DNA of 64,000 nt, taken from the NCBI GenBank assembly GCA_023150375.1, contig JAKLLA010000016.1:62001-126000 (forward strand), written 5' to 3'. Both the position numbers and the translations under genes were made by a program. The notes beneath the pieces were generated by a model. The model made no database searches and was not told where the DNA came from. It saw only the letters and a program-made list of their open reading frames with translations. This document shows, piece after piece, positions 48,245 through 64,000 of the stretch; positions within the stretch are counted from its first letter, which is position 1, and each line of letters starts with the position of its first letter. This DNA comes from Burkholderiaceae bacterium (GTDB lineage: Bacteria; Pseudomonadota; Gammaproteobacteria; Burkholderiales; Burkholderiaceae_C).

Positions 48245-49303
48245 ATGGCCTCCGACCCGACCTCCCTCCGTTCGCGCGCCACGCGCCGCAGCGCGGCCGG
48301 CCCCGTGACACTGGACCAGGTGGCGCAGGCCGCCGGGGTGTCGCCCAGCACGGTGTCGCGCATCCTGAACGGCACCGCCTCGGTCTCCGACGACAAGCGC
48401 CAGGCGGTCGAACAGGCCATCGCCCAGCTGGGCTTCGTGCCCAACCCGGTGGCGCGCGGACTGGCCGGCGGGCGCACGCTGAGCGTGGGCGTGGTCACCC
48501 AGGCCATCGACAGTCCCTTCTACGGGGTGGCGCTGCGCGGCATCGAGGACGCGCTCGACCAGGCCGGCTACAGCCCGCTGTTCGTCAGCGGCCACTGGAA
48601 CGCGGTGGAGGAGGCCCGCTGCATCGAGATGCTGCGCGCACGGCGGGTGGACGGCCTGATCGTGCTCGACGGCCGCCTGGCCGACGGTGCCCTGCGCGCC
48701 TGTGCCCGCAGCCTGCCGCTGGTGGTCACCGGCCGGAAGCTGAAGGCGGCGAACCTGTTCTCGCTGCAGTTCGACAATTTCGAGGGCGCCCGCCTGGCCA
48801 CGGCCCACCTGCTCGAACAGGGCCACCAGCGCATCGCCTTCATCGCCGGCGATACCGCCCACCCCGATGCGCTGGAGCGCGAGCGCGGCTACCGCGCCGC
48901 GCTGGAGGCCGCGGGCCTGGACTTCGATGCGGCCCTGGTGTCGCCGGGCCTGTTCCACGAGGAGGGCGGGCTGGCCGCGACGGAGCGCCTGCTGGAATCG
49001 CGCCAGCGTTTCACCGCCCTCTTTGCCGCCAACGACCAGATGGCCGTCGGCGCCCGTCTGGCGCTGCACCGCCACGGCCTGCGCGTGCCGCAGGACGTGT
49101 CGATCGTCGGTTTCGACGACCTGCTGGCCTCGCGCCACAGCCTGCCGCCGCTGACCACCATCCACCAGCCGGCCTACGAGATGGGCCAGCTCGCCGCCCA
49201 GGCGATGCTGCAGATGCTCGCGGGCGAACGCCCGACGGTGCAGATGCCGCCGCCGCGCCTGGTGCTGCGCGAATCGACCCAGGCGCCCGCCCCACGCGGC
49301 TGA
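48245..49303 (+). CDS. LacI-family transcriptional regulator of the beta-glucan locus
   Basis: A 352-residue regulator. The helix-turn-helix is VTLDQVAQAAGVSPSTVSRILNGTASVSDDKR (about residues 21-52), followed by the hinge QLGFVPNPVARGLAGGRT. The periplasmic-binding-protein-like effector domain runs VGVVTQAIDSPFYGVALRGIEDAL... to FAANDQMAVGARLALHRHGLRVPQDVSIVGFDDL. It lies directly upstream of the GH16-GH17-GH17-symporter operon. A LacI-type palindrome (TGAAAGCGCTTTCA) recurs in front of every transcription unit of the locus, so this protein is very likely the regulator that reads it. Its effector, a glucan oligosaccharide or glucose phosphate, is unknown. Confidence 0.9.
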   Translation: MASDPTSLRSRATRRSAAGPVTLDQVAQAAGVSPSTVSRILNGTASVSDDKRQAVEQAIAQLGFVPNPVARGLAGGRTLSVGVVTQAIDSPFYGVALRGIEDALDQAGYSPLFVSGHWNAVEEARCIEMLRARRVDGLIVLDGRLADGALRACARSLPLVVTGRKLKAANLFSLQFDNFEGARLATAHLLEQGHQRIAFIAGDTAHPDALERERGYRAALEAAGLDFDAALVSPGLFHEEGGLAATERLLESRQRFTALFAANDQMAVGARLALHRHGLRVPQDVSIVGFDDLLASRHSLPPLTTIHQPAYEMGQLAAQAMLQMLAGERPTVQMPPPRLVLRESTQAPAPRG

Positions 49304-49400
49304 GGGACGCACGGCCTGCACACTGCCCGGCCACGGCCGCGCGAGCGGCCGACCCACGGGTTTCCCCTGACCAGTGCACACAACCCCGCCGGAGAGAATG

Positions 49401-49414
49401 TGAAAGCGCTTTCA
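49401..49414. promoter_or_regulatory. LacI-type operator 1, upstream of the GH16 operon
   Basis: TGAAAGCGCTTTCA, a perfect 14-bp palindrome with the central CG typical of LacI-family operators. It lies 46-59 bp before the GH16 start. Confidence 0.85.
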
Positions 49415-49459
49415 AGGCCTGCCGGGCCTGCATCGAAGCGTGCCCAGGAGACCCTTTCC

Positions 49460-50431
49460 ATGCTCCAGCGAACGACTGGTCACAGCACCGCCGACCGCCC
49501 TGCCCGCCCCTCCCGAGCGCCCGGCCGCAGACCGACCTGGGAGCTGGTCTGGTCCGACGAGTTCGACGGCGACGCGGTGGACCGCAGCAAGTGGGACTTC
49601 GACCTCGGCAACGGCTTCTTCGACTACCGGGTGCACCAGTGGGTGCCCGGCTGGGGCAACGAGGAGCTGCAGTACTACACCGCCGAGCCCGAGAACGTGC
49701 AGGTGCGCGACAGCTGCGTCTTCATCCGCGCCGTGAAGGCGCCGCTGCACGGCTGCGGCTACACCTCGGCACGGCTGAAGACCAAGGCGCGCGACGGCAG
49801 GGTGCTCTTCTCCAAGCTGTACGGCCGCATCGAGATCCGCGCCCGCGTGCCCTGGGGCAAGGGCCTGTGGCCGGCGCTGTGGATGCTGCCGGTGGACGAC
49901 CGCTACGGCGGCTGGGCGGCCAGCGGCGAGATCGACCTGATGGAGATCGTCGGCGAGCGGCCGCAGGAGGTGCTCAACAGCCTGCACTTCGGCTCCAGCT
50001 TCCCGCGCCGCTCGCTCATCACCACCACCCATGCCCTGCCCGGTGGCAGCCGGGTGTGTGACTGGCACACCTATGCGGTGGAGTGGGAGCCGGGCGAAAT
50101 CCGCTTCTTCGTCGACGACACCCAGACCTGCACCTACCGCCACTGGTGGAGTTGCAGCCGCATCGAAGACGGCCAGGGTGTGGAGGCCACCGGAGCGGCG
50201 GATCTGAACCCCTGGCCGGCCCCCTTCGACCAGCCCTTCTACCTGCTGATGAACGTGGCTGTGGGGGGCAACTTCCCCGGCCTGCCGAACGCGGCGACGC
50301 AGTTTCCGGCCGAGCTGGTGGTGGACTACGTGCGGGTGTACGACAAGGTCGGCGGCTACGGCAAGGCCAAACGGCGCGGGCCGGGCGTGATGCCCTGGCA
50401 GCCCGGCCATGTGGCCGAGCGGCGGCTGTGA
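49460..50431 (+). CDS. GH16-family beta-glucanase (laminarinase type), no signal peptide
   Basis: A 323-residue glycoside hydrolase. It reads WELVWSDEFDGDAVDRSKWDFDLGNGF and W..NEELQYYT, with the catalytic block E157-I-D159-L-M-E162 (nucleophile and acid/base). It then continues HFGSSFP, DWHTYAVEWEPGEIRFFVDD and FDQPFYLLMNVAVGGNFPG. The fold and motif fit endo-1,3(4)-beta-glucanases. The N-terminus (MLQRTTGHSTADRPARPSRAPGR) has no hydrophobic signal, so it appears cytoplasmic. The ATG at 49460 is preceded by AGGAG. First gene of the plus-strand operon. Confidence 0.88.
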   Translation: MLQRTTGHSTADRPARPSRAPGRRPTWELVWSDEFDGDAVDRSKWDFDLGNGFFDYRVHQWVPGWGNEELQYYTAEPENVQVRDSCVFIRAVKAPLHGCGYTSARLKTKARDGRVLFSKLYGRIEIRARVPWGKGLWPALWMLPVDDRYGGWAASGEIDLMEIVGERPQEVLNSLHFGSSFPRRSLITTTHALPGGSRVCDWHTYAVEWEPGEIRFFVDDTQTCTYRHWWSCSRIEDGQGVEATGAADLNPWPAPFDQPFYLLMNVAVGGNFPGLPNAATQFPAELVVDYVRVYDKVGGYGKAKRRGPGVMPWQPGHVAERRL

Positions 50432-50468
50432 ATCGCCCCAACGCCCAGCCCCGCAGGAATACGCCCTC

Positions 50469-51551
50469 ATGAGCCGCCCTGTCCACCCTGTACACCCTGC
50501 CCGCCCCGGCTGGCCCGCGCTCACCGACCCGCCCCGGTGGACCGGTGCCGAGGTCACCGAACCGGGCCGACCGACCGCAGCGGACCTGTCCGAGCCCCTG
50601 CCCGCCAGGGTGCCGCACCCCACCGGCGACACGCTGCCGGATCGCTCCGGCGCAGGGGTTGCGCAGGCCGCAGGCGCCCATGCCGCTGCATCCCCCACAG
50701 CAGCCGCGCCGGCCGGCCTGCCGCCCTCCCCGCTCGCCGAAGCCTTCCGCGCCACGCTGCGCCGCGGCATCCACGGCCTGTGCTTCAGCCCCTACCTCGA
50801 AGGCCAGCAGCCCGGCGACGCCATCGACGAGGCCCAGATCCGCGCCCGGCTGCGCATCGTGCGCCCGTACGCCCGCTGGATCCGCAGCTTCTCGTGCACC
50901 GACGGCCACGAACACACCCCCCGCATCGCCCACGAACTGGGCTTCAAGACCCTGGTCGGCGCCTGGCTGGGCACCGACGCGGCGATCAATGCGCGCGAGA
51001 TCGAGGGCCTGATCGCCGTGGCCCGGGCCGGCCATGCCGACCTGGTCGCGGTGGGCAACGAAGTGCTGCTGCGTGAGGACATGGGCGAGGACGCGCTGCT
51101 GGACTGCCTCCAGCAGGTCAAGGCCGCCCTGCCGGGTGTGCCGGTGGGCTACGTGGACGCGTACTACCTGTTCGAACGGCACCCGCGCATCACTGCCGCC
51201 TGCGACGTGGTGATGACCAACTGCTATCCCTTCTGGGAAGGCTGCCCGCGCCATGAGGCCCTGCCCTACATGCAGAGCATGCTGGCACGCACCCGCGCGG
51301 CCGCACCGGGCAAACGCATCGTGATCAGCGAAACCGGCTGGCCCGACCGGGGCAGCGCCTTCCACGGCGCCGTGCCCGGTCGCGAAGCGGCGATGCAGTA
51401 CTTCGTCGACACCGCGGCCTGGGCCGACGCCGAAGGCCTCGAGTGGTTCCACTTCGCCGCCTTCGACGAGGCCTGGAAGGTGGGCGCCGAGGGTGATGTC
51501 GGCGCCTTCTGGGGCCTGTGGGACCAGGACGGCCAGCTCAAGTTCGGCTGA
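50469..51551 (+). CDS. GH17-like beta-1,3-glucan hydrolase, cytosolic
   Basis: A 360-residue protein. About 95 residues are a Pro/Ala-rich tail without signal. The TIM-barrel part starts LRRGIHGLCFSPYLEGQQPGDAID. The acid/base E198 is in DLVAVGNEVLLRED and the nucleophile E288 in IVISETGWPD, the two GH17 signatures. It ends FHFAAFDEAWKVGAEGDVGAFWGLW. Bacterial GH17 enzymes act on short beta-1,3-glucans. It follows GH16 by 37 bp and precedes the second GH17 by 9 bp. Confidence 0.85.
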   Translation: MSRPVHPVHPARPGWPALTDPPRWTGAEVTEPGRPTAADLSEPLPARVPHPTGDTLPDRSGAGVAQAAGAHAAASPTAAAPAGLPPSPLAEAFRATLRRGIHGLCFSPYLEGQQPGDAIDEAQIRARLRIVRPYARWIRSFSCTDGHEHTPRIAHELGFKTLVGAWLGTDAAINAREIEGLIAVARAGHADLVAVGNEVLLREDMGEDALLDCLQQVKAALPGVPVGYVDAYYLFERHPRITAACDVVMTNCYPFWEGCPRHEALPYMQSMLARTRAAAPGKRIVISETGWPDRGSAFHGAVPGREAAMQYFVDTAAWADAEGLEWFHFAAFDEAWKVGAEGDVGAFWGLWDQDGQLKFG

Positions 51552-51560
51552 CGAGGCACC

Positions 51561-52535
51561 ATGACACTGCAGCTGCCCTCCGGCAACGCCATCTGCTACT
51601 CCGGCTACCGCGACGGCCAGAGCCCCGACCTGCGCCGCTACCCCAGCCTCGCGCAGATCCGCGAGGACCTGCAACTGCTCGCGCCGCACTGGCCGCTGCT
51701 GCGCCTGTACGACTGCAGCCCGCATGCCGAGCGGGTGCTGCAGGTGATCCGCGAAGACCGCCTGCCCCTGCGTGTGCTGCTGGGCGCCTACCTGGGCGCC
51801 GAGGCCAGCAACCCGGGCTGCCCCTGGGGGGGCCTGCATGACGACACCCAGCTGGCCGCCAACACCCGCGAGAACGCCTCGGAGCTGCAGCGGCTGATCG
51901 CGCTGGCCCGTGCCCACGAGGACATCGTCTTCGCAGTGGCGGTGGGCAACGAATGCACCGTCGACTGGACCGACCACCTGGTGCCGGTGCCGCATATGGT
52001 CGAGTACCTCCGCCGGGTCCGGATGGCCGTGGCCCAGCCGGTGACCTTCTGCGAGAACTACGTGCCCTGGCAGGACAAGCTGCGCCCGCTGGTCGACGAA
52101 GTCGACTTCATCTCGCTGCACAGCTACCCGGTGTGGGAGTACCAGCCCATCGAGCGGGCGCTGGCCTACACGCAGGCCAATGTCGACAGCGTCGCGCGGC
52201 TCTACCCCGGCAAACCGGTGGTGATCACCGAGGCCGGCTGGTGCACCGCCAGCAACGGCCGCGGCATGCACGCCGCCGATGCCAACCCGGAACTGCAGGC
52301 CCGCTATGTGCGCGAGCTGATGGACTGGAGCCGCGCAACCGGTCGGCTGTGCTTCGTCTTCGAGGCCTTCGACGAGCCCTGGAAGGGTTCGCCCGATCCG
52401 CTGGAGCCGGAGAAGCACTGGGGCCTGTACGGCGTCGACCGGCAGCCCAAGCCGGTGGTGCAGGCGCTCTTCCCGACCCGCGCCGACGCCGCAGCGACGC
52501 CCGAATCCCCGCCCCCGATGGAGCCCCCGGCATGA
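51561..52535 (+). CDS. Second GH17-like beta-1,3-glucan hydrolase, cytosolic
   Basis: A 324-residue TIM-barrel hydrolase without signal peptide. The acid/base E131 is in FAVAVGNECTVDW and the nucleophile E224 in PVVITEAGWCTASNG. It has ISLHSYPVWEYQP and FEAFDEPWKGSPDPLEPEKHWGLYGVDRQPK, a C-terminal block shared by the third GH17 of the locus. It resembles, but is distinct from, the preceding GH17, so the two may prefer different chain lengths. Its stop overlaps the symporter start (ATGA). Confidence 0.85.
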   Translation: MTLQLPSGNAICYSGYRDGQSPDLRRYPSLAQIREDLQLLAPHWPLLRLYDCSPHAERVLQVIREDRLPLRVLLGAYLGAEASNPGCPWGGLHDDTQLAANTRENASELQRLIALARAHEDIVFAVAVGNECTVDWTDHLVPVPHMVEYLRRVRMAVAQPVTFCENYVPWQDKLRPLVDEVDFISLHSYPVWEYQPIERALAYTQANVDSVARLYPGKPVVITEAGWCTASNGRGMHAADANPELQARYVRELMDWSRATGRLCFVFEAFDEPWKGSPDPLEPEKHWGLYGVDRQPKPVVQALFPTRADAAATPESPPPMEPPA

Positions 52536-53989
52536 CCTCCCCCGCCCGCCGCGCCGCCCCTGCCACCCCGGCGGGCCACAAGGTGCCGTTTCGCCACAAG
52601 GTGGCCTTCGGGCTGGGCATGCTGGCCAACCAGATGTTCCCGGCCGCACTCGGCATCTTCATGGTGGTGCTGGTGCAGGACATGGGCTTCCCGGGCTGGA
52701 TGTGGGGCGTGCTGTTCTTCCTGCCGCGGGTGTTCGACTCGCTCACCGACCCGATCATGGGTTTCATCTCCGACAACACGCGCTCGAAGTGGGGCCGGCG
52801 GCGGCAGTACGTCTTCGTCGGAGCGATCGTGATGGGCATTGCCTTCGTCGCGATGTGGCAGCTCTACCGCGAGGACGGCATCCCCTACAACTTCGCCTAC
52901 TTCCTGGCCTGGTCGATCGTGTTCTACACCGGGCTGACGCTGTTCAGCATTCCCTACGTGGCCATGGGCTACGAGATGAGCGACGACTTCCACGAGCGCA
53001 CCAGCATCATGGCCGTGGCGCAGTGGATCGGCCAGTGGGCCTGGGTGATCGCGCCCTGGTTCTGGGTGGTGATGTACGACCCGGGCTGGTTCGAGAACGC
53101 CGACACCGCCACCCGTACCCTGTCGGTCTGGGTCGGTGTGGCCTGCATGCTGCTGGCGATGGTGCCGGCGATCTTCCTGCCCAGCCGCTCCACCCTGCAC
53201 GACGAGCAGCTGCTGCCGCTGACCTGGCGCCACCTGGGTGCGGGCATGAAGGAGATCCTGAACGGCTTCCAGGAAGCCTTCGGCTCGCGGCCCTTCCGCA
53301 AGCTCTGCTACGCCACCTTCCTGATCTTCAACGCCTTCAACACGGTGGCGGCGTTTTCCTTCTTCATCGTGGTCTACCACCTGTTCGCCGGCAACGCGGC
53401 GGCAGCAGGCATCTGGCCGACGCTGTTCGGCAGCGTCGGCGCGCTGATCACCACCTTCGCGGTCATCCCCACGGTGGCCTGGATGTCCAAGAAGATGGGC
53501 AAGCGCAACGCCTTCATGCTCTCGCAGGGCGTCTCCATCGTCGGCTACATCCTGCTGTGGTTCCTGATGGTGCCCGGCCAGCCCTGGCTGTTCATGCTGG
53601 CGCTGCCCTTCTTCTCCTTCGGCATCGGCGGGCTGTTCACGCTGATGATGTCGATGACCGCCGACGTCTGCGACCTCGACGAACTGGCCACCGGCAAGCG
53701 GCGCGAGGGCATCTTCGGCGCCATCTACTGGTGGATGGTCAAGTTCGGCTTCGCCATCGCCGGGCTGCTCAGCGGCGCCATCATGTCCTTCGTCGGCTTC
53801 GCGCCGGGTGCGGCCACCCAGGCCGCCGGCGCGGTGGACGGGCTGCGCCTGTTCTACTCCGGCGTGCCCATCTGCGGCACGCTGCTGGCGCTGTGGATCA
53901 TGCGCGACTACGACCTGGACGAACAGCGCGCCAACGAGGTGCGCGCCGAGCTGGAGCGGCGCCATCAGGCGGCGGGGACAGCCGCTTGA
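52532..53989 (+). CDS. GPH-family (MelB-like) sugar:cation symporter
   Basis: A 485-residue inner-membrane transporter with 12 segments. It reads KVAFGLGMLANQMFPAALGIFMVVLVQDMG, then FFLPRVFDSLTDPIMGFISDNTRSKWGRRRQYV, the MelB/GPH cation and sugar signature, and SMTADVCDLDELATGKRREGIFGAIYWWMVKFGFAIAGLL. These residues are the hallmarks of glycoside-pentoside-hexuronide symporters. It should import glucan oligosaccharides or glucose. It is the last gene of the plus operon and converges with the phosphorylase gene. Confidence 0.9.
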   Translation: MTSPARRAAPATPAGHKVPFRHKVAFGLGMLANQMFPAALGIFMVVLVQDMGFPGWMWGVLFFLPRVFDSLTDPIMGFISDNTRSKWGRRRQYVFVGAIVMGIAFVAMWQLYREDGIPYNFAYFLAWSIVFYTGLTLFSIPYVAMGYEMSDDFHERTSIMAVAQWIGQWAWVIAPWFWVVMYDPGWFENADTATRTLSVWVGVACMLLAMVPAIFLPSRSTLHDEQLLPLTWRHLGAGMKEILNGFQEAFGSRPFRKLCYATFLIFNAFNTVAAFSFFIVVYHLFAGNAAAAGIWPTLFGSVGALITTFAVIPTVAWMSKKMGKRNAFMLSQGVSIVGYILLWFLMVPGQPWLFMLALPFFSFGIGGLFTLMMSMTADVCDLDELATGKRREGIFGAIYWWMVKFGFAIAGLLSGAIMSFVGFAPGAATQAAGAVDGLRLFYSGVPICGTLLALWIMRDYDLDEQRANEVRAELERRHQAAGTAA

Positions 53990-53999
53990 GTGGGTGCGG

Positions 54000-54021
54000 T
54001 GGCCGGCGCGCTTGCCGGCCA
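54000..54021. terminator. Hairpin between convergent symporter and phosphorylase genes
   Basis: An 8-bp stem TGGCCGGC/GCCGGCCA with a 6-nt loop in a 57-bp gap between stop codons. It has no U-tract but is well placed to end both operons. Confidence 0.5.
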
Positions 54022-54046: not shown

Positions 54047-57000
54047 TCAGTCGGAGGCGATGGACATCCAGGCTTCGACCGCCGTCACACCCTGCGGATC
54101 GAAAGCCAGCGTCGGCGCCTCGTGCCACGCCCCATCCCGCAGCACACGCAGCGCGGTGCGCGTACCGAGGCGGATGCGCCAGGGCACCTGGCGGAAGGTG
54201 AAGGCCAGCGCGCCACCGGCCGGCACTTCGGCCGCGTCGGTCAGCACCGGACAGAAGTGGATCCGTCCACCGGCCAGCCGCAGCCCCAGCTCGCCCCAGC
54301 GGGTGAGGATCTCCTCCTTCACCTGGCCGGTCATGCCCGGCTGCTGGGCGCCGCCCTCGCCCGGCGTGTGGCTGTACGGATCGGCCGGGAAGGCGCCGTA
54401 CTCGGCCGCGGTCTTGCGGTAGCCCAGCCCGTCGCGCACCCGCCGGTAGTAGGCGATCAGCGCGGGCAGCTCGGGTGCGCCGGCATCGTGTGCGGCGAAC
54501 ACCTGCTCCTGCACCGCCAGCAGCAGCTTGGCCACCATGTGCCAGTAGATGCAGCCCAGGCCTTCGTAGCCGAACATCGTGCCGGAGCGGCCGGTGAAGG
54601 CGGCGTGGTCCAGCACGCGCTCGTAGGCCTGGGCCAGCACGGCCAGCTCCGGCCCCAGATCGGCCCCCGCCGCCTCCAGATCGCCTCGGTTGCTCAGGCC
54701 GGGGGCAAAGCGCACCGTGCCGTCCGACTCCTGCTGCAGCAGGTCCTCGCGGCCTTCGGCCAGCAGGCGCTGCACCACCGGCAGCGCCAGCGCCTCGGCA
54801 TCGAGCCGGTTGCGCTGCAGGAAACCGGGCAGCGCCCGGTCCGGGTACAGCATGAAGCTGCGCCGCCGGGGGCAGTACAGGGGGCTGGCGAACAGGGCAT
54901 CCAGCAGCGCGACCGCCTCGGCGGGCGAGAGCAGCCCGCTGGACAGCATCGCGACCTGGCCCTCGAGCATGGGGTACAGCGGGCTCACCTCGGCGCGGCC
55001 GGGAGTGGCCAGGTCGACCAGGTTGTAGGCGTGGTACAGACCGTCGTCGCGGCGGCTGGCGCGCAGCGTGGCCTCGACCAGCGGCAGCAGGTCCTGGGCC
55101 AGACCGGTCAGCAGGCCGGCTGGGGCCATCGCCGCCTCTCGACCGGCAGCGCCGCGGTAGGCGGCGGCGCGCCAGGGGTCGAGCAGCTCGCCCGCGGCGT
55201 CGAGGAAGCGGCGCCGCCCTTCGGCATCCTGGATCACCGCGAGGGGCGTGGCGCGCAGCAGCGCCTGCAGCCCGGTAAGCGCCTGCAGCGTGGCCGCCGA
55301 CAGCGCGAACGGTGCATCGGCCCCCGGCAGTGCGGCGACGAAGGCCAGGAAGCGCCGCAGGTGCGCCAGCGTCACCACCGACAGGCCGTTGCCCACCAGG
55401 GCGTTGTTGGCGTCGTTCCACTCCGGCCGCTGGGTGTGCAGCCACAGGCCGCCGCCGGGCAGCAGGCTGCCGGCCTTGGCCAGCACGATGGTGGCGAGCT
55501 TCTCGCCCAGCGTGGCCAGCACCGGCAGGCCGTCGTCGCCGCAGACCCGCAGGCCGTCGGCGCCGATCGCCCGGGCCCGGGCATGGGCGCGGTGGTGGGC
55601 GTCGTGGTCGAAGTGAATCGTGGCCTTCGGCGACGCGGTCTGCTCGGCATGGGGCTTCAGCCGGTACGGCACGTCGGCAAAGCTGAACAGCGCCCGGTCC
55701 CAGAGCGCGGCCAGCCGGCCGGGTCGGTGCGCCTCGGTCGCCTCCAGCAGCTTCAGCAGGTAGACCACCTGGTGGTCACCCCAGTAGCCGATGAAGCTCC
55801 AGGGGTCGTCGGGCTCCACCACCTCCCAGTCGATGCCGTCGCGGCCGATGCGGTAGGGGTTGTAGCCATCGGGCGTCATCGCGCCCAGGAAGACCGTGAC
55901 CATGCCGTCCAGGTAGGCCGGCTCGCTGGCGGCCAGCGCCTCCCAGTTCTGGAAGATGTCGCGCCAGTTGCCCTGGTAGTCCACCGTGCGCCGGCCCTGT
56001 GCATCGCGCACCCGGATCGAGAAGCGGTTCCAGGGCCGGCTCGGGTCGCCGTGCCGGCGGCTGAAGGTCAGCGGCAGGTACTCGCGCAGCAGGCGCTCGG
56101 CCTGCGTGCCGAGCGCGTCGCGTCCCCGGGCGATCGCCTCCTCGCGGGCAATGCGCGCAGGCCAGTCGGCCGCCAGCCCGGCCAGCGCCTCGCCCAGCGC
56201 ACGGTGGCGCTGGCGCGCGAAGGCGAGCAGGTCGTCGCGGTCCAGCCCGTCGCCGTCGACGAACACCCCGCCGCGCATGATGTTGAACAGCACATTGGCC
56301 TGGTGGTGGGCTGCGGCCATCGGGTCGCCGGAGGTCTGCAGGCCGTCGGCGCGCGCCAGCAGCTCGGCCAGGCCGGCCTCGTTGCGCGTGCGGGCCTCGG
56401 CGATCTGCGCCGGCGTGCCGTCACCGGCGGCCAGGCGCCGCGCCAGTTCGGCGGCCTGCACCTGGCTGTACGGCGCGTCGATCACCAGGTGCCAGTCGCA
56501 ACCCGACGCGTTCACTTCGGTGTCGAACTGCACCAGGAAGGCGCCGCGCCGGCCCCGGGTCAGCGGCTCGCCCGCCACCCGGCCGCTGCGGCAGAACTCG
56601 CGCACCTGGTGGTCCGACAGCAGGGTGCGGGTGCCCTCGGGCAGGCCGGCGTGCCAGGCCACCAGCGCCTGGAAGGATTCCTTGGGCTCGGCCCGGTCCC
56701 AGATCTGCGCATAGAGCGTGAACAGGCCCAGCCGGCCGCCGGCGGCGGCCTCGTTCCACTTGTAGGCGTCGGTGAGGCTGCTCATCGTGGCCGACAGGCG
56801 GGTGCCCACGTTCGGCGGCAGCAGGTTCAGCACGCCGTCGAGCACCTGCACCGCCACCGGCTCGCCCGGCGCCCACAGGCGCGCGCTGCGCACCAGGCCC
56901 AGGCCGGCGGCGGTGAACCACTCATGCTGGAACACCAGCCGTCCGCTCGGGTGGGTCTCGCGGAAACGGATGCGCGAGCCACACAGCGTCTTCCACACCG

Positions 57001-57313
57001 AGCGCTGCGGCGCCGGGCCGTCGCCACCCTGCGGCGCGAACGGCTGCCACAACTCCCAGCCCCGCCCCAGGTCGGCGCGGATCCAGCTGCGCGGGCCGGT
57101 GTGCGCCCCGCGCAGGTGGATCTTGTCCACCGTCTCGTAGGGCAGGAAGGCGCCCTCCTCGTCGCGCCGGCCGGCGGCCAGCGAGCCGGCCGAGGACACG
57201 AAGGCCCACAGGTCGCTGTCGCCGGCCAGCGCCATGAAGAACGGCGCCTGGGCGTCGTGGCCGTCGATGCGGTACCAGGTCTGGCCGTCGTCGTGCACGA
57301 ACGCGCCGTGCAT
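54047..57313 (-). CDS. Large GH94/GH149/GH161-clan enzyme, probable beta-1,3-glucan phosphorylase
   Basis: A 1088-residue cytosolic protein without signal peptide. It shows the clan layout: an N-terminal beta-sandwich (GQTWYRIDGHDAQAPFFMALAGDSDLWAFVSS...), a helical linker (NIMRGGVFVD), an (alpha/alpha)6 barrel and a C-terminal beta-sheet domain. D634 in PEWNDANNALVGNG matches the catalytic aspartate of GH94-clan phosphorylases. Blocks YNPYRIGRDGIDWEV, LYPMLEGQVAMLSSGLLS and FGYEGLGCIYWHM are conserved-looking. Length (about 1100) suits GH149 or GH161 beta-1,3-glucan phosphorylases, which cut with phosphate to give glucose 1-phosphate. The start at 57313 has GAGG upstream and lies 10 bp after the GH17 gene. 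Confidence 0.75.
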   Translation of the reverse strand: MHGAFVHDDGQTWYRIDGHDAQAPFFMALAGDSDLWAFVSSAGSLAAGRRDEEGAFLPYETVDKIHLRGAHTGPRSWIRADLGRGWELWQPFAPQGGDGPAPQRSVWKTLCGSRIRFRETHPSGRLVFQHEWFTAAGLGLVRSARLWAPGEPVAVQVLDGVLNLLPPNVGTRLSATMSSLTDAYKWNEAAAGGRLGLFTLYAQIWDRAEPKESFQALVAWHAGLPEGTRTLLSDHQVREFCRSGRVAGEPLTRGRRGAFLVQFDTEVNASGCDWHLVIDAPYSQVQAAELARRLAAGDGTPAQIAEARTRNEAGLAELLARADGLQTSGDPMAAAHHQANVLFNIMRGGVFVDGDGLDRDDLLAFARQRHRALGEALAGLAADWPARIAREEAIARGRDALGTQAERLLREYLPLTFSRRHGDPSRPWNRFSIRVRDAQGRRTVDYQGNWRDIFQNWEALAASEPAYLDGMVTVFLGAMTPDGYNPYRIGRDGIDWEVVEPDDPWSFIGYWGDHQVVYLLKLLEATEAHRPGRLAALWDRALFSFADVPYRLKPHAEQTASPKATIHFDHDAHHRAHARARAIGADGLRVCGDDGLPVLATLGEKLATIVLAKAGSLLPGGGLWLHTQRPEWNDANNALVGNGLSVVTLAHLRRFLAFVAALPGADAPFALSAATLQALTGLQALLRATPLAVIQDAEGRRRFLDAAGELLDPWRAAAYRGAAGREAAMAPAGLLTGLAQDLLPLVEATLRASRRDDGLYHAYNLVDLATPGRAEVSPLYPMLEGQVAMLSSGLLSPAEAVALLDALFASPLYCPRRRSFMLYPDRALPGFLQRNRLDAEALALPVVQRLLAEGREDLLQQESDGTVRFAPGLSNRGDLEAAGADLGPELAVLAQAYERVLDHAAFTGRSGTMFGYEGLGCIYWHMVAKLLLAVQEQVFAAHDAGAPELPALIAYYRRVRDGLGYRKTAAEYGAFPADPYSHTPGEGGAQQPGMTGQVKEEILTRWGELGLRLAGGRIHFCPVLTDAAEVPAGGALAFTFRQVPWRIRLGTRTALRVLRDGAWHEAPTLAFDPQGVTAVEAWMSIASD

Positions 57314-57323
57314 CGCGTGCGCC

Positions 57324-59129
57324 TCAGCGGCTCCAGTGGATGCCATCGACATGGACGGTGGGCAGGGCGGTGCCCCTGGCCTTGCCGGTGAAGGAGAAGC
57401 GGTCGGCGATGATGAACGGCAGCCGCACCGCGCGCAGATCGAGCTGGGGATTGGCCTGGACGAAGGCGCTCAGCGGGATGCTCACCTGGCACCAGGCATC
57501 GCTGTTGCAGTAGCCGTACTGCCCCGGCGAGATCTGCAGGTAGGCCTCGGCGCCGGCGCGGTTCTCGGTGTCGGTGGCGATGCCGATCTCGATCTTGCCC
57601 GGGTAGCCGTTGGTGCGGATCCAGGCATTCAGCGTGCCGCCGGCAAAGCCCGACAGGTTCAGCGTGGCGCCGCCGCCGTTGTGGCGCAGCAGGCCCCAGT
57701 AGCCGTCGGCCGCCGGAATCGGCGTGATGCGCAGGCTCTCGGGCCCCTCGCCGGGCGGGAAGGTGGCCGCATCGGGCGGGTAGTCGGCGGTCACGCCGCC
57801 CGCGCCGTTGCCGAAGGCGTCCCAGCGGGCGTCGGCGTAGCGTGCCTCGCCGGCCGTGACGGCATCGGCGTACAGGGTGAAGCGGTCGGCCGCGATGGCC
57901 TCGTTCACGGTCAGCGGCACGAAGTACACCGCATCCTCGATGCGCACCGAGGCGGTGGCCGGCTCGCCGGTGCCGGCGCCGAGCCAGAGCGACTCGGGGT
58001 ACAGGTCCTTCACCACGAAGCGCGCCTTGCGATCGACGGTGAAGAAGCCCCACTTGTCGTCGGCCTGCTTCCAGGGCTCGTCGAAGGCGACGAAGTGCAC
58101 CACGCCCTTGGGCCCGGTGCCCGAAGCCACCCAGGCGTTCAGCGCGTCGACATAGAGCTTCTGGTTGGCCGGATGCGAGATGAAGGCCCGCCCGCCTGTG
58201 TCCACCGCCTGCCAGCCGGTCTCGCCGATGATGATCGGCATGTCGCGGTAGCCCACCGCGTCCATCTTGGCGCGCACGTCGGCGTAGTTCTGCCGGGCCC
58301 GCTGCAGCGCCGCGTCCATCATCGCCGCAGCGCGCTGTTCGGCCGGCACCGAGGCGAAGCGCCACTCGTACAGGTCATAGAGCGTGTCCAGGCCGGGGTA
58401 GACGTGCATGGCCACGAAGTCGATCGCGCCGAGCACCTCGGTGGGATCCTGCTCGTAGAAGGTGGGCGAGTCGACCTTCGGCCCGACGAAGAAGGCCCAG
58501 TTGTCGTCGGTGGTCACCGGCTGGGTGATCGCCGCGCGCACCGTCTTCAGATAGGGCAGCATGCCCACGGTGGCGATGCGGTGGCCCGACCAGCTGACCA
58601 TGGCCTCGTTGCCCACGCTCACCGCGACGACGATGTCGCGGAACTCGTTGGCCAGCGCGATGCCGCGCGCCACCTCGGCGTTGTTGCCCGCCGCATCGGC
58701 GCCGCTGATCCAGATGCCCTGCATCACCTTCAGCGGCAGGCCGTGGTCGCGGATCACCTGCAGCGTCTGGCGCGAGACCTTGTCGTCGGCCGCGTAGAGG
58801 CGGATCAGCCGGAAGCCGCCGGCCACCAGCAGGTCCAGGTCCTGCTTGATCATCGCCGGGGTGATGACCTCGCTGGCGCGTTCGGCATCGTTGCGGGCGG
58901 TGCGGTAGGGGCCGTAGGCAATCGCCCTGGAAGTGGCCAGCTCGGCGGGCAGCGCACGCAGGCCGCCGGCCTGGGGCTTGGAAACCTCGCCGCCGCCACC
59001 GCAGGCGGCCAGGCCCAGCGTGAGCAGCAGGGCCAGCAGCGGCAGCAGCAGCCCGATCAGCCGCGCGCCCGGGCCGCCGTGGCCCGACATGCCGGCAGCC
59101 TGGGTCGCAAGGGCAGGGTGTCGATTCAT
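57324..59129 (-). CDS. GH17 lipoprotein with C-terminal carbohydrate-binding-like domain
   Basis: A 601-residue lipoprotein with Cys43 in LGLAAC, then GGGGEVSKP. The GH17 barrel (about 75-400) has E175 in VAVSVGNEAMVSW as acid/base and E303 in IIIGETGWQ as nucleophile. It shares FVAFDEPWKQADDKWGFF with the cytosolic GH17s. The remaining about 200 residues form a beta-sandwich of the kind seen in carbohydrate-binding modules (LTVNEAIAADRFTLYADAV ... VQANPQLDLRAVRLPFIIADRFSF). It is likely periplasmic or surface-anchored. GAGGG precedes the start; 10-bp gaps on both sides show a tight operon. Confidence 0.83.
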   Translation of the reverse strand: MNRHPALATQAAGMSGHGGPGARLIGLLLPLLALLLTLGLAACGGGGEVSKPQAGGLRALPAELATSRAIAYGPYRTARNDAERASEVITPAMIKQDLDLLVAGGFRLIRLYAADDKVSRQTLQVIRDHGLPLKVMQGIWISGADAAGNNAEVARGIALANEFRDIVVAVSVGNEAMVSWSGHRIATVGMLPYLKTVRAAITQPVTTDDNWAFFVGPKVDSPTFYEQDPTEVLGAIDFVAMHVYPGLDTLYDLYEWRFASVPAEQRAAAMMDAALQRARQNYADVRAKMDAVGYRDMPIIIGETGWQAVDTGGRAFISHPANQKLYVDALNAWVASGTGPKGVVHFVAFDEPWKQADDKWGFFTVDRKARFVVKDLYPESLWLGAGTGEPATASVRIEDAVYFVPLTVNEAIAADRFTLYADAVTAGEARYADARWDAFGNGAGGVTADYPPDAATFPPGEGPESLRITPIPAADGYWGLLRHNGGGATLNLSGFAGGTLNAWIRTNGYPGKIEIGIATDTENRAGAEAYLQISPGQYGYCNSDAWCQVSIPLSAFVQANPQLDLRAVRLPFIIADRFSFTGKARGTALPTVHVDGIHWSR

Positions 59130-59139
59130 CGCAGATCCC

Positions 59140-60519
59140 TCAGAAGACATAGACCGCGCCGGCACCGACCCAGTTGCCGTTCTTGGCGGCACGGGAATCG
59201 ACGTTCGTGAACGAGCTGTTGCCCGGCATCGACATCGGCGACAGCCCGCGCTGGCGGTAGTTCACCGTGCCGGCCAGGCCGTAGGTCTTCAGGCCGTTGC
59301 GGAAGTCGTACTCCAGGCCCAGGGTGTTGATCAGCGCGTGGTTGCTCTGACCGCGCTCGCTCGGGTTCTTCGTCTTGGCCTGGCCGAGGAAGAGCATGCC
59401 GGTGTGCGCGGTCCAGTTGCCCATGCGGTAGCGCAGGCCCAGCGTGCCGTCCAGCGAGCGGGCCGCATAGCCCGGGCTGTCGATGTCGCAGCGCGAGGGC
59501 ACGGCCTCCTTGCAGAACCAGTCGACGTTGAAGGGGTTGTTCCACTGCGCCAGCGCGCTGCGGTCCTCGGCCGGCGGCACGGTCATGCGGGCATAGGCGC
59601 CGCTCCAGCGGTTGTGGCGCAGGCCGCCCAGCAGCTCCCAGCTCGGGTCGAACTGCCAGCGCGCCATCAGCATCGCGATGCTCTGCCCGGAGCCGCCCAG
59701 CTTGGCGTCGTCGCGCGGGAAGGGGGTCAGCCCGGTGAAGGGGCCCTGCCCCCAGGCCGAGGGCGTGCCGTTGCGGCTGTCCTGGTAGATCATGTCGACG
59801 ATCAGGCCTTCGCGGTAGAACTGTGCGTAAAGCTCGACGAAGCGCGGCTTGTTCTTCTTCCAGCCCGAGGCCCCCCGGTCGTAGGTGACCTCCAGCACCA
59901 GGTCGCCGACCGACACATCCAGCGGTCGCGAGGTATAGCGCAGCGCATGGCCGAGCAGGCCGTAGCCCGCCCCGCTGGAGGCCCAGGGCGAGGCCAGCCC
60001 GATGTCGCTGCCGAAGGGGTAGTCGGCCAGGCTCCAGCTGCGGCTGAGCATCGCGCCCACCGCCAGCCGGCCGTAGTCCTCGTGGCTGACGTACAGCGCC
60101 TTGTCCCACCAGAAGCCGGGAATGTCCTCCTCGCCGTCGCGCCAGCGCTTGCTGAGCAGGCCGCCCACCTTGAACCCTTCGGGCAGGTCGAACTTGACGC
60201 CCAGGTAGGGCTGCAGCAGCGTCACGACCTCGCTGCGGGTCTGCAGGCGCGCGCCGGGGATCAGCGCATCGGCCCAGATCTTCTGCTTGTCCTCGCCCGG
60301 GTTGACCGCGCAGTCCGGACACTGGTTGTTGCCGCGGGTGAACTCGACCTTCGCGAAGCCGGTGAGCGAGAACGGCCCGAAGTCGATCGCCTGGGCCGAC
60401 GCGGCCAGGCTGCTCAGCAGCACGGCCGCCACGGGCCGCCATGAAGGGCCGGCGCGGCGCCGCGCCGGCGTGTTCGGCGCCCGGGCGGGCGACGCAGGAG
60501 CCTGGGGTGGGAGGTGCAT
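59140..60519 (-). CDS. Outer-membrane porin of the beta-glucan locus
   Basis: A 459-residue outer-membrane barrel. The signal region is WRPVAAVLLSSLAASAQA. The mature part starts IDFGPFSLTGFAKVEFTRGNNQCPDCAVNPGEDKQKIWAD, with a disulfide-capable CPDC, and runs as many amphipathic strands. It ends VGAGAVYVF with terminal Phe. Strands such as RFVELYAQFYREGLIVDMIYQ and WTAHTGMLFLGQAKT support a porin. It is first in the minus operon, right behind operator 2, so it probably brings oligosaccharides into the periplasm in place of a SusC/D pair. The exact porin family is not certain. Confidence 0.78.
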   Translation of the reverse strand: MHLPPQAPASPARAPNTPARRRAGPSWRPVAAVLLSSLAASAQAIDFGPFSLTGFAKVEFTRGNNQCPDCAVNPGEDKQKIWADALIPGARLQTRSEVVTLLQPYLGVKFDLPEGFKVGGLLSKRWRDGEEDIPGFWWDKALYVSHEDYGRLAVGAMLSRSWSLADYPFGSDIGLASPWASSGAGYGLLGHALRYTSRPLDVSVGDLVLEVTYDRGASGWKKNKPRFVELYAQFYREGLIVDMIYQDSRNGTPSAWGQGPFTGLTPFPRDDAKLGGSGQSIAMLMARWQFDPSWELLGGLRHNRWSGAYARMTVPPAEDRSALAQWNNPFNVDWFCKEAVPSRCDIDSPGYAARSLDGTLGLRYRMGNWTAHTGMLFLGQAKTKNPSERGQSNHALINTLGLEYDFRNGLKTYGLAGTVNYRQRGLSPMSMPGNSSFTNVDSRAAKNGNWVGAGAVYVF

Positions 60520-60554
60520 GATGGATGGGTCGAGGCGGGCTCGGCGATCATGTT

Positions 60555-60568
60555 TGAAAGCGCTTTCA
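60555..60568. promoter_or_regulatory. LacI-type operator 2, upstream of the porin operon
   Basis: TGAAAGCGCTTTCA, identical to operator 1. It is 36-49 bp before the porin start, in the divergent gap between porin and GH81. Confidence 0.85.
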
Positions 60569-60714
60569 CAGAATAGTGGCCTGCACCGCCGCGGTCAACG
60601 GCCAGCCCCCCGTGTTTTCCCGCGCCCGGCCCGGCCGCAGCGTCCGGCGCCTGTGCGCCGGCCGAGTCGGGTCCGGATCCGCCCCGGACGAGGGTTTCCC
60701 CGGGGACGAAATTA

Positions 60715-60728
60715 TGAAAGCGCTTTCA
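60715..60728. promoter_or_regulatory. LacI-type operator 3, upstream of the GH81 gene
   Basis: TGAAAGCGCTTTCA, identical to operators 1 and 2. It is 67-80 bp before the GH81 start. Operators 2 and 3 are 160 bp apart centre to centre, close enough for DNA looping by a tetrameric LacI-type protein. Confidence 0.85.
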
Positions 60729-60794
60729 GAATCCTTCCTGCCGATTGCCGACAGGCCCAGGGCGCCCCGGGGCGCCTGCCGTGAGGACGCCGCG

Positions 60795-63125
60795 ATGAAC
60801 CTCTCTTCCCTGCTGCGCCGGCCCCTGTGGGCCGGCCTGTTCGCCCTGCTGCCGCTGGGCGCGGCGCTGACCGGTCCGGCCACGGCGCAACCCCTGGCCG
60901 TCGGGGCCGGCCAGGTGCACCTGGCGCCCCGGGGCAAGGACCGGCCGCCGCCGCGTGCGCCGTGGCGAACCGAGGCCATGTCGAAGCAGGCGGTGCCGAC
61001 CAGCCAGTGGTACTCGACGCTGGTCTTCAACCCGAAGCCCGACCCGATCTACGCCCAGCCGCTGGCCTTCCGGACCACCGCCGCGGGCCTGGAGATGTCG
61101 CTGCCGCGCAAGCGGGTGGTGCCCACCGAGCGGCAGGACGTCGAGATCCACTACCCGCACGAGGCGGCGCTGATCTTGCGCCCCGAGGCCTTCGAGCCGG
61201 AGCCGGCGAAGCTGGCACGGGTGTCCGACTGGGCCATCGACATCGGCCTGGCCCGCGGAGCCGACCAGCTCCTGGCCACGGTGGCGCATGGCAGCCCCTA
61301 CGCCTACTTCCGCCTGAGCCGCGGCGATGTGCGCATCGACCTGACCGAGGCCGGCGAGCGTGCGAGCGCGAGCACCGACCCGCGCACGCTGCTGCTGCGC
61401 GTGAAGGGCCAGACCTTCGCGGTCTTCGGCCCCACCGGCGTGCGCTGGGAGCAGGCCTCGGCCACGCGGTGGATCGGCCGGCTGCCGGCCGGCGCGGGCT
61501 ATTTCTCCGCCACCGCCCTGCCCGACGACCGGCCCGAGACCCTGGCCCTGCTGGCCCGCCATGCCTACGCCTTCGTCCAGGACACGCAGGTGGAAGGCCG
61601 CTACGACCCGGCCACCAGCATGGTGCAGACCACCTTCACCGCGACGGTGCAGGTCATGGAAGGCCCCGACCACGGCCCGCTGCTCGGCCTGTACCCGCAC
61701 CACTGGCACGACAACGCCTCGGTGGCCGGCCGGCTGGGCCCGGCGTACGACACCGTGCGCGGTCCGCTGCACCTGCTGGCCGCCGCCAGCTTCCAGACGA
61801 CCCGGCCCTACCACGGCTTCGTGCCGCACTGGCCGCGCCTGAGCGAAGGGCCGCGGCTGGAGGAGCTCAACGACCACCTCGAGCGCGACCTGCGCCGCCG
61901 CCGCGAGCTGATCCCGGCGCGCGAGAACGCCGACAACTGGCGCGTCTCGGCCTACTGGCAGGGCAAGGGCCTGACCCGCGTGACCCAGCTCGCCGCCATT
62001 GCCGAGCAGCAGGGCAACCTGGCCGCGCGCGACCAGCTGCTGGCCATCGCCCGCGAGCGCATGGAATGGTGGTTCGGCGGCCGGGCCGCCCGCAGCTACC
62101 TGCACTGGGACCAGGCGCTCGGCGCGGTGGTGGCCTACCCGGACGAGTTCTTCCATGTCGAGCAGCTCAACGACTTCCACTTCTGGTTCGGCTACTGGAT
62201 CCGCGCGGCCGCCGAGATCGCCCTGCGTGACCCGGCCTGGGCCGCCCCGGAGCGCTGGGGCGGCATGGTGGACCTGCTGGTGGCCAACATTGCCAGCACC
62301 GACCGCAGCCGCACGAAGTTCCCGCGGCTGCGCAACTTCGATCCCTACGAGGGCCACTCCTGGGCAGTGGGCATCGGCGGCGCGGGCGAGTACGGCGCGC
62401 TGGGCAACAACCAGGAGTCGTCCAGCGAGGCGCTCAACGCCTGGGCCGGCCTGATCCTCTGGGGCGAGGCCACCGGCAACCCCGCTGTCCGCGACCTGGG
62501 GGTCTACCTGCTCACCACCGAGATCGATGCCATCGAGCACTACTGGTTCGACCTGCACCGCAAGGTGTTCGCGCCGGAGTACAAGAACGTCGAGACCAGC
62601 ATGGTCTTCGGCGGCAAGTACGCGCACAACACCTGGTGGACCGACGAGCCGCGCCAGATCCATGGCATCAACCTGCTGCCGATCGCCTCCTTCTCCACCT
62701 ACCTGGCCCGCGACCCGGCCTTCATCCGGCGCAACCTGGCGGCCATGGACGAGGAAAGCGCGGCCTACCGCAAGCGCGGCAGGCTGCCGCCCAACCCGCC
62801 GCCGGCCGACATCTGGCAGGACATCTTCGCCAAGTACCTGGCGCTGGCCGACCCGGCGGCAGCGCTGGCGAGCTGGAACCCCAACGGCAGCATCGAGGCC
62901 GGCGACACCCGCACCCACACGCTGCACTGGATGCTCAGCCTGCAGGCCCTGGGCACCCCCGACCTGACGGTGCGCGCCGACACGCCGCTGTACGCCGTCT
63001 TCAGGCGCCCCGACGGACAGCGCAGCTACCTGGCCTACAACGCCGGCAAGGCGCCCCTGAAGGTGACCTTCAGCGACGGCCGGGTACTCGAGGTGGCACC
63101 GGGCACGCTGGGCCAGCTGCGTTGA
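60795..63125 (+). CDS. GH81 endo-beta-1,3-glucanase, secreted
   Basis: A 776-residue exported enzyme. The signal peptide is MNLSSLLRRPLWAGLFALLPLGAALTGPATAQ. The N-terminal beta-sandwich begins PTSQWYSTLVFNPKPDPIYAQPLAFRTTAAGLEMS. The (alpha/alpha)6 catalytic part has LNDFHFWFGYWIRAAAEIALRD with D460, and HSWAVGIGGAGEYGALGNNQESSSEALNAWAGL with E541 and E545, the GH81 signature. It should cut beta-1,3-glucan such as laminarin endo-wise outside or in the periplasm. AGGA lies before the ATG. It is transcribed divergently from the porin operon. Confidence 0.92.
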   Translation: MNLSSLLRRPLWAGLFALLPLGAALTGPATAQPLAVGAGQVHLAPRGKDRPPPRAPWRTEAMSKQAVPTSQWYSTLVFNPKPDPIYAQPLAFRTTAAGLEMSLPRKRVVPTERQDVEIHYPHEAALILRPEAFEPEPAKLARVSDWAIDIGLARGADQLLATVAHGSPYAYFRLSRGDVRIDLTEAGERASASTDPRTLLLRVKGQTFAVFGPTGVRWEQASATRWIGRLPAGAGYFSATALPDDRPETLALLARHAYAFVQDTQVEGRYDPATSMVQTTFTATVQVMEGPDHGPLLGLYPHHWHDNASVAGRLGPAYDTVRGPLHLLAAASFQTTRPYHGFVPHWPRLSEGPRLEELNDHLERDLRRRRELIPARENADNWRVSAYWQGKGLTRVTQLAAIAEQQGNLAARDQLLAIARERMEWWFGGRAARSYLHWDQALGAVVAYPDEFFHVEQLNDFHFWFGYWIRAAAEIALRDPAWAAPERWGGMVDLLVANIASTDRSRTKFPRLRNFDPYEGHSWAVGIGGAGEYGALGNNQESSSEALNAWAGLILWGEATGNPAVRDLGVYLLTTEIDAIEHYWFDLHRKVFAPEYKNVETSMVFGGKYAHNTWWTDEPRQIHGINLLPIASFSTYLARDPAFIRRNLAAMDEESAAYRKRGRLPPNPPPADIWQDIFAKYLALADPAAALASWNPNGSIEAGDTRTHTLHWMLSLQALGTPDLTVRADTPLYAVFRRPDGQRSYLAYNAGKAPLKVTFSDGRVLEVAPGTLGQLR

Positions 63126-63240
63126 GCACCCGTGAACGAGCCGGCTGCGACCGGCGGCGCCTGACCGCGTTCACGCGGGCCTCAGGGTAAGCCACGATCG
63201 AGCGGCCTTGCGCCCCCCACCGACAGGCACTAAGCTTCTT

Positions 63241-63254
63241 TGAAACCGCTTTCA
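63241..63254. promoter_or_regulatory. LacI-type operator 4 (one mismatch), upstream of the Ig-repeat lipoprotein
   Basis: TGAAACCGCTTTCA differs from the other operators at one position in the left half-site. It is 73-86 bp before the lipoprotein start and extends the regulon beyond the window edge. Confidence 0.75.
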
Positions 63255-63326
63255 TAGCGCTCTGCGACAGCCTGCCCCGGCAGACGGCCGCCCTTCGCCG
63301 CCCTTCTTCACCCAGGACGTCCCACC

Positions 63327-64000
63327 ATGACCGCTTCCCCGCTCCGTCCGCCCCTCAGCGCCCTGGCGCTCGCGGCGACCCTGATCCTCTCGGCCTGCGG
63401 GGGCGGTGACGCCTCGCCGCCGGCCGAAACCACGCCGCCCACGATGAACATCGCCAGCAGCGTGATCAGCGGTGCGGCAGCAGGCGACGTGACCTTCACG
63501 ATCACCTTCAGCGAGGACGTCGGGCGCAGCTTCACGGCCGACGACGTGGCGGTCAGCAACGGCAGCAAGGGCGCCTTCACGCGCGTGAGCAGCACGCAGT
63601 ACACCCTGGTGGTCACGCCGGCGCCCAACAGCACCGGCAGCATCGGCCTGACCGTGGCGGCCGGCAGCTACGAGGACCCGGCCGGCAACCGCGGCGGCGC
63701 CGCCTCGGCCAGCCAGGCCTTCGACACCCTGCCCCCGGTGGCCACGCTGACCAGCAGCGCCGCCGGCAGCACGGCCAGCGGCGACGTGACCCTGACCTTC
63801 AGCTTCAGCAAGGACGTCGGCAGCAGTTTCGATGCCGACGATGTCGCGGTCACCGGCGGCAGCAAGGGCACCTTCACCCGCGTCGACGGCAGCCGCGCCA
63901 CGCTGGTGGTCAGGCCGGATGCCGACTCGGCCGGCAACCTGGAGATCAGCGTCGCCGCGGGGGCCTTCGCCGACGGCGCCGGGCGCAGCAACACCGCGGC
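63327..64000 (+). CDS. Lipoprotein with bacterial Ig-like repeats (partial, 3' end outside window)
   Basis: The first 224 codons are present. Cys24 lies in LILSAC, then GGGDASPP. Two tandem Ig-like modules of about 90 residues follow: PPTMNIASSVISGAAAGDVTFTITFSEDVGRSFTADDVAVSNGSKGAFT and PPVATLTSSAAGSTASGDVTLTFSFSKDVGSSFDADDVAVTGGSKGTF. AGGA precedes the ATG. Such repeats usually space a catalytic or binding domain from the cell surface. With an operator of the glucan regulon upstream, a glucanase or glucan-binding domain further on is likely but not visible. Confidence 0.85.
   Translation, partial: MTASPLRPPLSALALAATLILSACGGGDASPPAETTPPTMNIASSVISGAAAGDVTFTITFSEDVGRSFTADDVAVSNGSKGAFTRVSSTQYTLVVTPAPNSTGSIGLTVAAGSYEDPAGNRGGAASASQAFDTLPPVATLTSSAAGSTASGDVTLTFSFSKDVGSSFDADDVAVTGGSKGTFTRVDGSRATLVVRPDADSAGNLEISVAAGAFADGAGRSNTA

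Follow-up and report, generated by a model that had tools for sequence, protein, structure and literature searches.

The window (the whole stretch of DNA that was analysed, 64,000 nucleotides from a Burkholderiaceae bacterium; G000:C10:62001-126000) belongs to a genome of 4.63 Mb in 43 contigs. We propose, with a probability of about 0.83, that the genes from position 48245 to the end of the window form a β-1,3-glucan utilization regulon of four transcription units that is repressed by a LacI-family protein. The initial annotation had already named β-1,3-glucans as the substrate. This prediction is supported by the enzyme families encoded, by an operator found nowhere else in the genome, by linkage of a porin-like gene to a GH81 gene in 18 of 18 genomes, and by modules of laminarin-binding type in the lipoproteins of related loci.

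Gene content and organization of the locus

Families were assigned by Pfam and NCBIfam scans of the locus proteins, with sequence comparisons to PDB added. The features, in order along the window, are as follows.

48245-49303, +, LacI-family regulator (PF00356, E 3.4e-17; PF13377, E 6e-43)
49401-49414, operator 1, TGAAAGCGCTTTCA, before the GH16 operon
49460-50431, +, GH16, laminarinase-like, probably cytosolic (PF00722, E 6.8e-16; laminarinase 3iln, E 3e-50)
50469-51551, +, GH17a, probably cytosolic (PF00332, E 1.7e-10; no signal peptide seen by eye)
51561-52535, +, GH17b, probably cytosolic (PF00332, E 1.3e-5, below cut-off; no signal peptide seen)
52532-53989, +, GPH symporter, MFS_2 (PF13347, E 1.3e-67; start overlaps the GH17b stop)
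54047-57352, -, GH149 β-1,3-glucan phosphorylase, activity predicted (NF058639, 1135 bits, cut-off 1150; no signal peptide seen)
57324-59129, -, GH17c, putative lipoprotein with lipobox LAAC and a C-terminal module (PF00332, E 3.6e-6, below cut-off; N-termini by eye)
59140-60519, -, porin-like, putative outer-membrane protein of an undescribed family (signal-like N-terminus, aromatic-X-Phe end)
60555-60568, operator 2, TGAAAGCGCTTTCA, before the porin operon
60570-60598, -, sigma70-type promoter of the porin operon, TTGACC-17-TATTCT, 1 bp from operator 2
60715-60728, operator 3, TGAAAGCGCTTTCA, before GH81
60795-63125, +, GH81 endo-β-1,3-glucanase with signal peptide by eye (PF17652, E 6.5e-43; 6fop, 575 bits)
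63208-63236, +, sigma70-type promoter of the lipoprotein gene, TTGCGC-17-TAAGCT
63241-63254, operator 4, TGAAACCGCTTTCA, before the lipoprotein gene
63327-64000, +, start of a lipoprotein gene with lipobox SACG and Big_12 domains (PF19078, E 1.8e-24; whole protein, E 3e-23)

LacI, GH16, the three GH17, the GPH symporter, GH149 and GH81 were found where the initial annotation had placed them; the porin named there was recovered as a porin-like protein without a family match. The two tight operons it described were evident. In the GH16-GH17-GH17-symporter operon the gaps were 37, 9 and -4 bp, and in the porin-GH17-GH149 operon a 10 bp gap was followed by a 29 bp overlap. A fourth unit, likewise headed by the operator, begins at 63327 and continues 1.2 kb beyond the window end; for this unit we read the 2.9 kb of sequence past the window, to the contig end. 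Family scans revealed no SusC/SusD pair and no TonB-dependent receptor among the ten locus proteins, and no glycosyltransferase among the locus proteins. The earlier description of the locus as lacking SusC/D thus stands.

The GH16 protein contains the motif EIDLME, its closest PDB chains are laminarinases, and no signal peptide was seen by eye in the N-termini of five sequences. Two of the three GH17 proteins scored slightly below the Pfam cut-off (25.4 and 27.3 vs 28.2 bits). GH17b has both GH17 motifs, GNE and TEAGW. GH17c has the GNE motif, GETGW was seen by eye in its translation, and its C-terminal module matched the carbohydrate-binding module (CBM)-type chains 1wmx and 2c24 weakly (E 0.003). 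The symporter reached 189 bits with TIGR00792, below the cut-off of 231. PF03639, the other GH81 model, matched neither the window GH81 nor the controls.

Related loci were identified by tblastn of the ten window-locus proteins on fetched loci. Other genomes of this family carry the same locus, as do the metagenome-assembled genomes (MAGs) L021 (uncultured beta proteobacterium) and L022 (Burkholderiales bacterium), and part of it is present in L020. Two genome samples were used: a family sample of 299 genomes and a class sample of 369 genomes, 3 of which are from this family.

One operator precedes each transcription unit

The pattern TGAAANCGCTTTCA has four sites in the 4.63 Mb genome (about 0.008 expected from the base composition of the window). 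All four lie in this locus, one before each transcription unit, and the form present at operators 1 to 3, TGAAAGCGCTTTCA, is a palindrome. The reversed pattern had no site in the genome. TGAAANCGCTTTCA was present in all five other family genomes that had been picked for their GH149 or GH161 locus, and absent from seven others; the reversed pattern occurred once in these 12 genomes, in the non-holder G018. A LacI orthologue occupies the same position in L101, L102, L163 and L106. The LacI-family regulator is probably the repressor of the locus, as judged from these sequence features.

At the porin and lipoprotein promoters the operator lies directly downstream of the -10 box. To score such an arrangement, 29 operators in 9 loci were assigned to genes by hand, and an ad hoc score with our own weights was applied. 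Sigma70 boxes directly upstream of operators had a mean score of 6.23, vs 4.12 (standard deviation 0.15) in shuffles, and none of 500 shuffles reached the observed value. By group, no shuffle of 1000 reached the score of the porin (7), GH1/GH16 (4) or lipoprotein (6) promoters.

Two further observations concern the operator surroundings. In five of seven GH81 promoters (L100, L102, L106, L021 and L022) the sequence GGGTAAAC, identified by eye, ends 11-14 bp before the operator, and the window GH81 promoter has GGGTTTCC in the region where its relatives have GGGTAAAC. A Tryptophan-halogenase-like gene stands beside a TonB-receptor-like gene at L020:4897-9650, L103:2087-6709 and L152:2877-7266, adjacent to GH149 or to the porin locus; the locus operator precedes the TonB-receptor-like gene in these loci, with one letter different in L020.

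The porin-like protein is tied to GH81

A signal peptide together with a C-terminal aromatic-X-Phe is a mark of outer-membrane β-barrels. The aromatic-X-Phe end was present in 7 of 7 aligned orthologues of the porin-like protein, and signal peptides were seen by eye. The protein had no family match in Pfam, NCBIfam or PHROGs and no relative among PDB sequences. A PDB search with the seven-row porin profile returned ribosomal-protein matches alone, with E values from 0.095, which were taken as chance.

Five of the seven rows of this profile came from genomes of the family sample, including the window's own. The profile matched 19 of 299 family genomes, 18 of them strongly; the weak match in G279 (E 2e-6) was treated as absent in the Fisher test. 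GH81 matched 20 of the 299 genomes and was without the porin in two (G037 and G096). In each of the 18 genomes with a strong porin match, GH81 lay on the contig of the porin, no more than 3 kb away. The co-occurrence had a Fisher p of 6e-27, with 5 of the 18 porin genomes contributing profile rows; because the genomes are related, this p overstates the case, and it describes an association, not a count of independent events. In the class sample the porin was found in 1 of 369 genomes, the window's own. The porin family has so far been found in one bacterial family.

The neighbourhood was read in 17 of the 18 porin genomes with a slightly relaxed operator motif, and G158 was judged from coordinates alone. 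Porin and GH81 were divergent in 14 of the 17 loci, with two operators between them or at the edges; in L160, L161 and L165 they were not divergent.

A lipoprotein slot beside GH81

The lipoprotein gene of the fourth unit (L001:1328-3220) encodes 630 residues with immunoglobulin (Ig)-type Big_12 domains and two tandem C-terminal modules (L001:2048-3217), which are 71% identical and rich in aromatic residues. The protein is possibly a surface glycan-binding protein with a SusE/F-like role, and the modules may possibly represent a new CBM. They recur, weakly, in 2 of 298 other family genomes (E 6.5e-8 and 9e-4). PDB matches to them at E 0.09 and 0.5 were taken as chance.

An Ig-domain gene stands beside GH81 in the window, L100, L101/L166, L102, L152, L153, L154, L156, L157 and L158. 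The gene in this place encodes modules without an Ig match in L021 and a secreted GH16 in L106. The operator precedes the Ig-type gene in 8 of 10 loci, and it is also present in L021. Lipoboxes were seen in the printed proteins of the window, L100, L101, L102, L021, L022 and L106. A C-terminal module is common to nine proteins of such loci. The repeated modules of L021, L100 and L101 matched 8qx6 (E 4e-13), whose title reads 'Novel laminarin-binding CBM X584', and 1gui of laminarinase 16A (E 6e-4). A structural model of the L021 module (predicted local distance difference test, pLDDT, 78.8) had CBM11 as its first Foldseek match (E 5e-7), CBM29 chains among the next, and 8qx6 at rank 10 with a template modelling score of 0.71. 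A P22 chain match to the relatives' modules (E 1e-7) consisted of many tiny repeats and was dropped as spurious.

The terminal enzyme differs among relatives

The large enzyme, which the initial annotation had called phosphorylase-like, is GH149, with β-1,3-glucan phosphorylase as its predicted activity. Its match to NF058639, a curated family model, spans residues 12-1043 and falls 15 bits short of the equivalog cut-off, and it scored 746 bits against the solved Pro_7066 structure, 6hq6. GH149 was inside the locus in 4 of 18 porin genomes (G000, G011, G053 and G133) and also in L021 and L022. G101 has a high-scoring GH149 that lies on a contig other than that of its porin and is 45% identical to the window enzyme.

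The GH149 model also had four partial matches in the family that look GH161-like. One of them, in G166 (L106), was checked against 9qqk and 9h8v. This L106 GH161 (L106:8489-11761, 688 bits to 9h8v/9qqk), which is in a Gram-negative genome, lies between a symporter-GH17 gene and GH30, the position that GH149 has in L022. The other three partial matches (L104, L105 and L107) had no other locus gene beside them at E 1e-10. L156 and L157 have neither phosphorylase; both keep GH30 and GH17, and L157 has GH1. In relatives, operator 1 is followed by GH1, and there is also a GH30 for which the top NCBIfam match, below cut-off, is an endo-β-1,6-glucanase. These findings indicate that the terminal enzyme differs among relatives, being GH149, GH161 or GH1.

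In the window genome no GH1 and no GH30 were found. Its one GH3 has the motif KHFPGHG, which we take to be NagZ-like. GH149 may be the only terminal enzyme of this genome. In the available part of one report, GH149 accepts a degree of polymerization (DP) of at least 2 and GH161 needs a DP of at least 3, leaving laminaribiose to a β-glucosidase (PMC6484121). GH149 as the sole terminal enzyme fits because it takes chains down to DP 2, and GH161 to DP 3. What this rule requires was found in both cases: the L106 GH161 is accompanied by GH1, and the window GH149 is without it. GH149 and GH1 occur together in L101, L102, L021 and G011; the rule permits this combination and does not require it.

Symporter and phosphorylase seem to have different origins

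The symporters of 9 of the 12 symporter-bearing loci of this bacterial group formed one clade (100/100) inside a 23-row clade (96/95). The other 14 rows of the larger clade are from Bacteroidota, including L087, which is not so titled. Outside it were other Bacteroidota, the archaeal-labelled MAG L045, Colwelliaceae and Glaciecola. The tree was midpoint-rooted, and the branching order within the 23-row clade was not resolved. The window symporter was 63-75% identical to those of 15 loci (14 Bacteroidota by title, plus L087) and 41-49% identical to those of four further Bacteroidota loci. L021, L154 and L165 have a distant symporter.

Symporter and GH17 share one open frame, as in the Formosa-type fusion, in L106, L022, L156, L157, L163 and L102. 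In L021 and L154 a GH17 is fused to the distant symporter. The fusion is absent from the window, L101 and L158. It apparently formed more than once.

The GH149 of this bacterial group formed a clade of eight next to two spirochaete MAG sequences, apart from Bacteroidota and other Gammaproteobacteria, in a tree of 44 rows picked by hand from 85; the model test flagged 33 of the 44 for uneven letter composition. The symporter and GH149 trees differ; the two proteins therefore seem to have come by different paths. The spirochaete GH149 sequences, in L023 and L024, come closest to the Burkholderiales clade (50-57%), which suggests transfer or misbinning.

Comparison with known systems

The comparisons below draw on the available parts of the cited papers. 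In Alteromonadales, the GH149 type II clusters have, like the window locus, GH149, GH16, a cytosolic GH17 and an MFS_2 transporter (Pfam 13347; Kuhaudomlarp 2018, PMC5827456). However, type II clusters use a TonB receptor as the outer-membrane gate and an extracellular GH16, whereas the window has a porin-like protein and a GH16 without a signal; a histidine kinase with a response regulator is named for them where the window has LacI; and the portion consulted names no GH81 or porin for them (PMC5827456). The window symporter shared 39-41% identity with its counterparts from Colwelliaceae and Glaciecola (L035, L043 and L077). GH149 type I clusters resemble the window in combining GH149 with a LacI- or AraC-type regulator; they differ in having an ABC transporter, with no extracellular laminarinase and no outer-membrane transporter in the account available (PMC5827456).

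Formosa-type laminarin loci of Bacteroidota are like the window in having GH149, GH16, GH17 and MFS, and their MFS-GH17 fusion also occurs in six relatives of the window locus; their gate is SusC/D, whereas that of the window is a porin-like protein (PMC6246565). In the 15 loci whose symporters were 63-75% identical, GH149 was 37-40% identical to the window GH149 and belonged to another clade. SusCD-less laminarin clusters of North Sea Gammaproteobacteria share GH16, GH17 and occasionally GH81 with the window but have TonB-dependent transporters in place of a porin (PMC8371827). GH149-containing laminarin clusters have been reported from Woeseiaceae as well, and seven of these include a SusC gene (PMC12175321). 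A Xanthomonas paper (PMC10714752) was considered and set aside; its available part names no GH17, GH81, GH149 or laminarin.

The initial annotation suggested that the complete gene set may be undescribed. This does not hold for GH149/GH16/GH17/MFS clusters (PMC5827456) or for SusCD-less clusters (PMC8371827), which are known. It may hold for the porin type: in the portions of the open-licence literature consulted, we found neither the porin gate and its linkage to GH81 nor the lipoprotein slot or the operator described.

Proposed mechanism and alternatives

The direction of the route and the locations of its proteins are predicted. A polymer of laminarin or curdlan type would be bound and cut outside the cell by secreted GH81 and outer-membrane lipoproteins. 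The resulting oligosaccharides would diffuse in through the porin-like protein and be trimmed by the GH17c lipoprotein in or on the envelope. The GPH symporter would move them across the inner membrane, and the signal-less GH16 and two GH17 would shorten them in the cytosol. GH149 would then free glucose 1-phosphate, and the route would end in glucose. The repressor would sit on TGAAANCGCTTTCA and leave when a β-1,3-gluco-oligosaccharide binds. The order first proposed, from porin to periplasmic GH17, symporter, and cytosolic hydrolysis and phosphorolysis, is largely retained; it was corrected by placing GH81, which has a signal peptide, at the start and by adding the lipoprotein as a fourth unit.

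Several results count against this proposal. The β-barrel of the porin-like protein is a prediction, and an AlphaFold2 model from three sequences had a mean pLDDT of 37.9. All calls of signal peptides and lipoboxes were made by eye on translations. The match to a laminarin CBM belongs to the relatives L021, L100 and L101, not to the window copy, whose two modules had no PDB or Pfam match; the window modules were linked weakly to the relatives' C-terminal module by one hhalign pair (probability 85.5%, E 6e-6), with the other pairings at 0.1-0.7%. GH149 is not invariant: its model has no match at all in 12 of 18 porin genomes. In L154 and L158 the interval from GH81 to the lipoprotein gene yielded no operator. 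The seven GH81 promoters had no sigma70 signal (82 of 1000 shuffles were as good), and sigma70 scores were low at the window GH16 promoter (4.2) and the L022 porin promoter (3.8).

A bolder form of the proposal is that a substrate-dedicated porin of a new family, lipoproteins with laminarin modules and secreted GH81 together make an energy-free gate. The locus would then be a third kind besides those with SusCD or TonB, with a symporter or symporter-GH17 shared with Bacteroidota, exchangeable GH149, GH161 and GH1, and one local LacI operator. We advance this form tentatively, at a little under even odds. The likeliest alternative to the main proposal, which we still consider unlikely, is that the porin-like protein is only a general pore and that glucan pieces enter via a TonB receptor encoded elsewhere in the genome. 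The neighbour of GH149 in L020 is a TonB receptor that has the same operator, in L103 it is a weaker receptor match, and L152 carries both porin and TonB receptor. However, all four operators of the window genome are at the locus and the genes behind them are not TonB receptors (the genome itself was not searched for these), and GH81 accompanies the porin in all 18 porin genomes.

The target could also be another β-glucan, of the mixed-linkage β-1,3/1,4 or yeast-type β-1,3/1,6 kind, since GH16 and GH17 are broad families and the GH30 of relatives has an endo-β-1,6-glucanase as its best match, below cut-off. We regard this as improbable: the presence of GH81 and GH149 argues for β-1,3 chains, the window genome had no GH30 in our search, and the nearest solved relatives of its GH16 are laminarinases. 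Least probable is that the locus makes or remodels a β-1,3 or cyclic glucan of its own, with GH17 acting as a transglycosylase, as some bacterial GH17 domains do, and GH149 running in reverse. GH149 is indeed described as reversible in the consulted part of PMC5827456. Biosynthesis of an endogenous glucan is nevertheless rated low because there is no glycosyltransferase among the locus proteins, and the secreted GH81, the sugar symporter and LacI fit uptake.

Significance

A main part of the carbon flowing from algae, fungi and plants consists of laminarin and similar β-1,3-glucans. Where the sources available to us name the outer-membrane gate of a Gram-negative laminarin route, it is SusCD or a TonB receptor. 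The related loci place the Formosa-type symporter-GH17 fusion outside Bacteroidota, and the varying presence of GH149, GH161 and GH1 among them offers a natural series on the chain-length logic of phosphorolysis. Porin, GH81 and operator together provide a marker set for finding β-1,3-glucan users. The porin route, if true, would give a function to an unannotated family of outer-membrane proteins and would show how Burkholderiales may join in β-1,3-glucan use.

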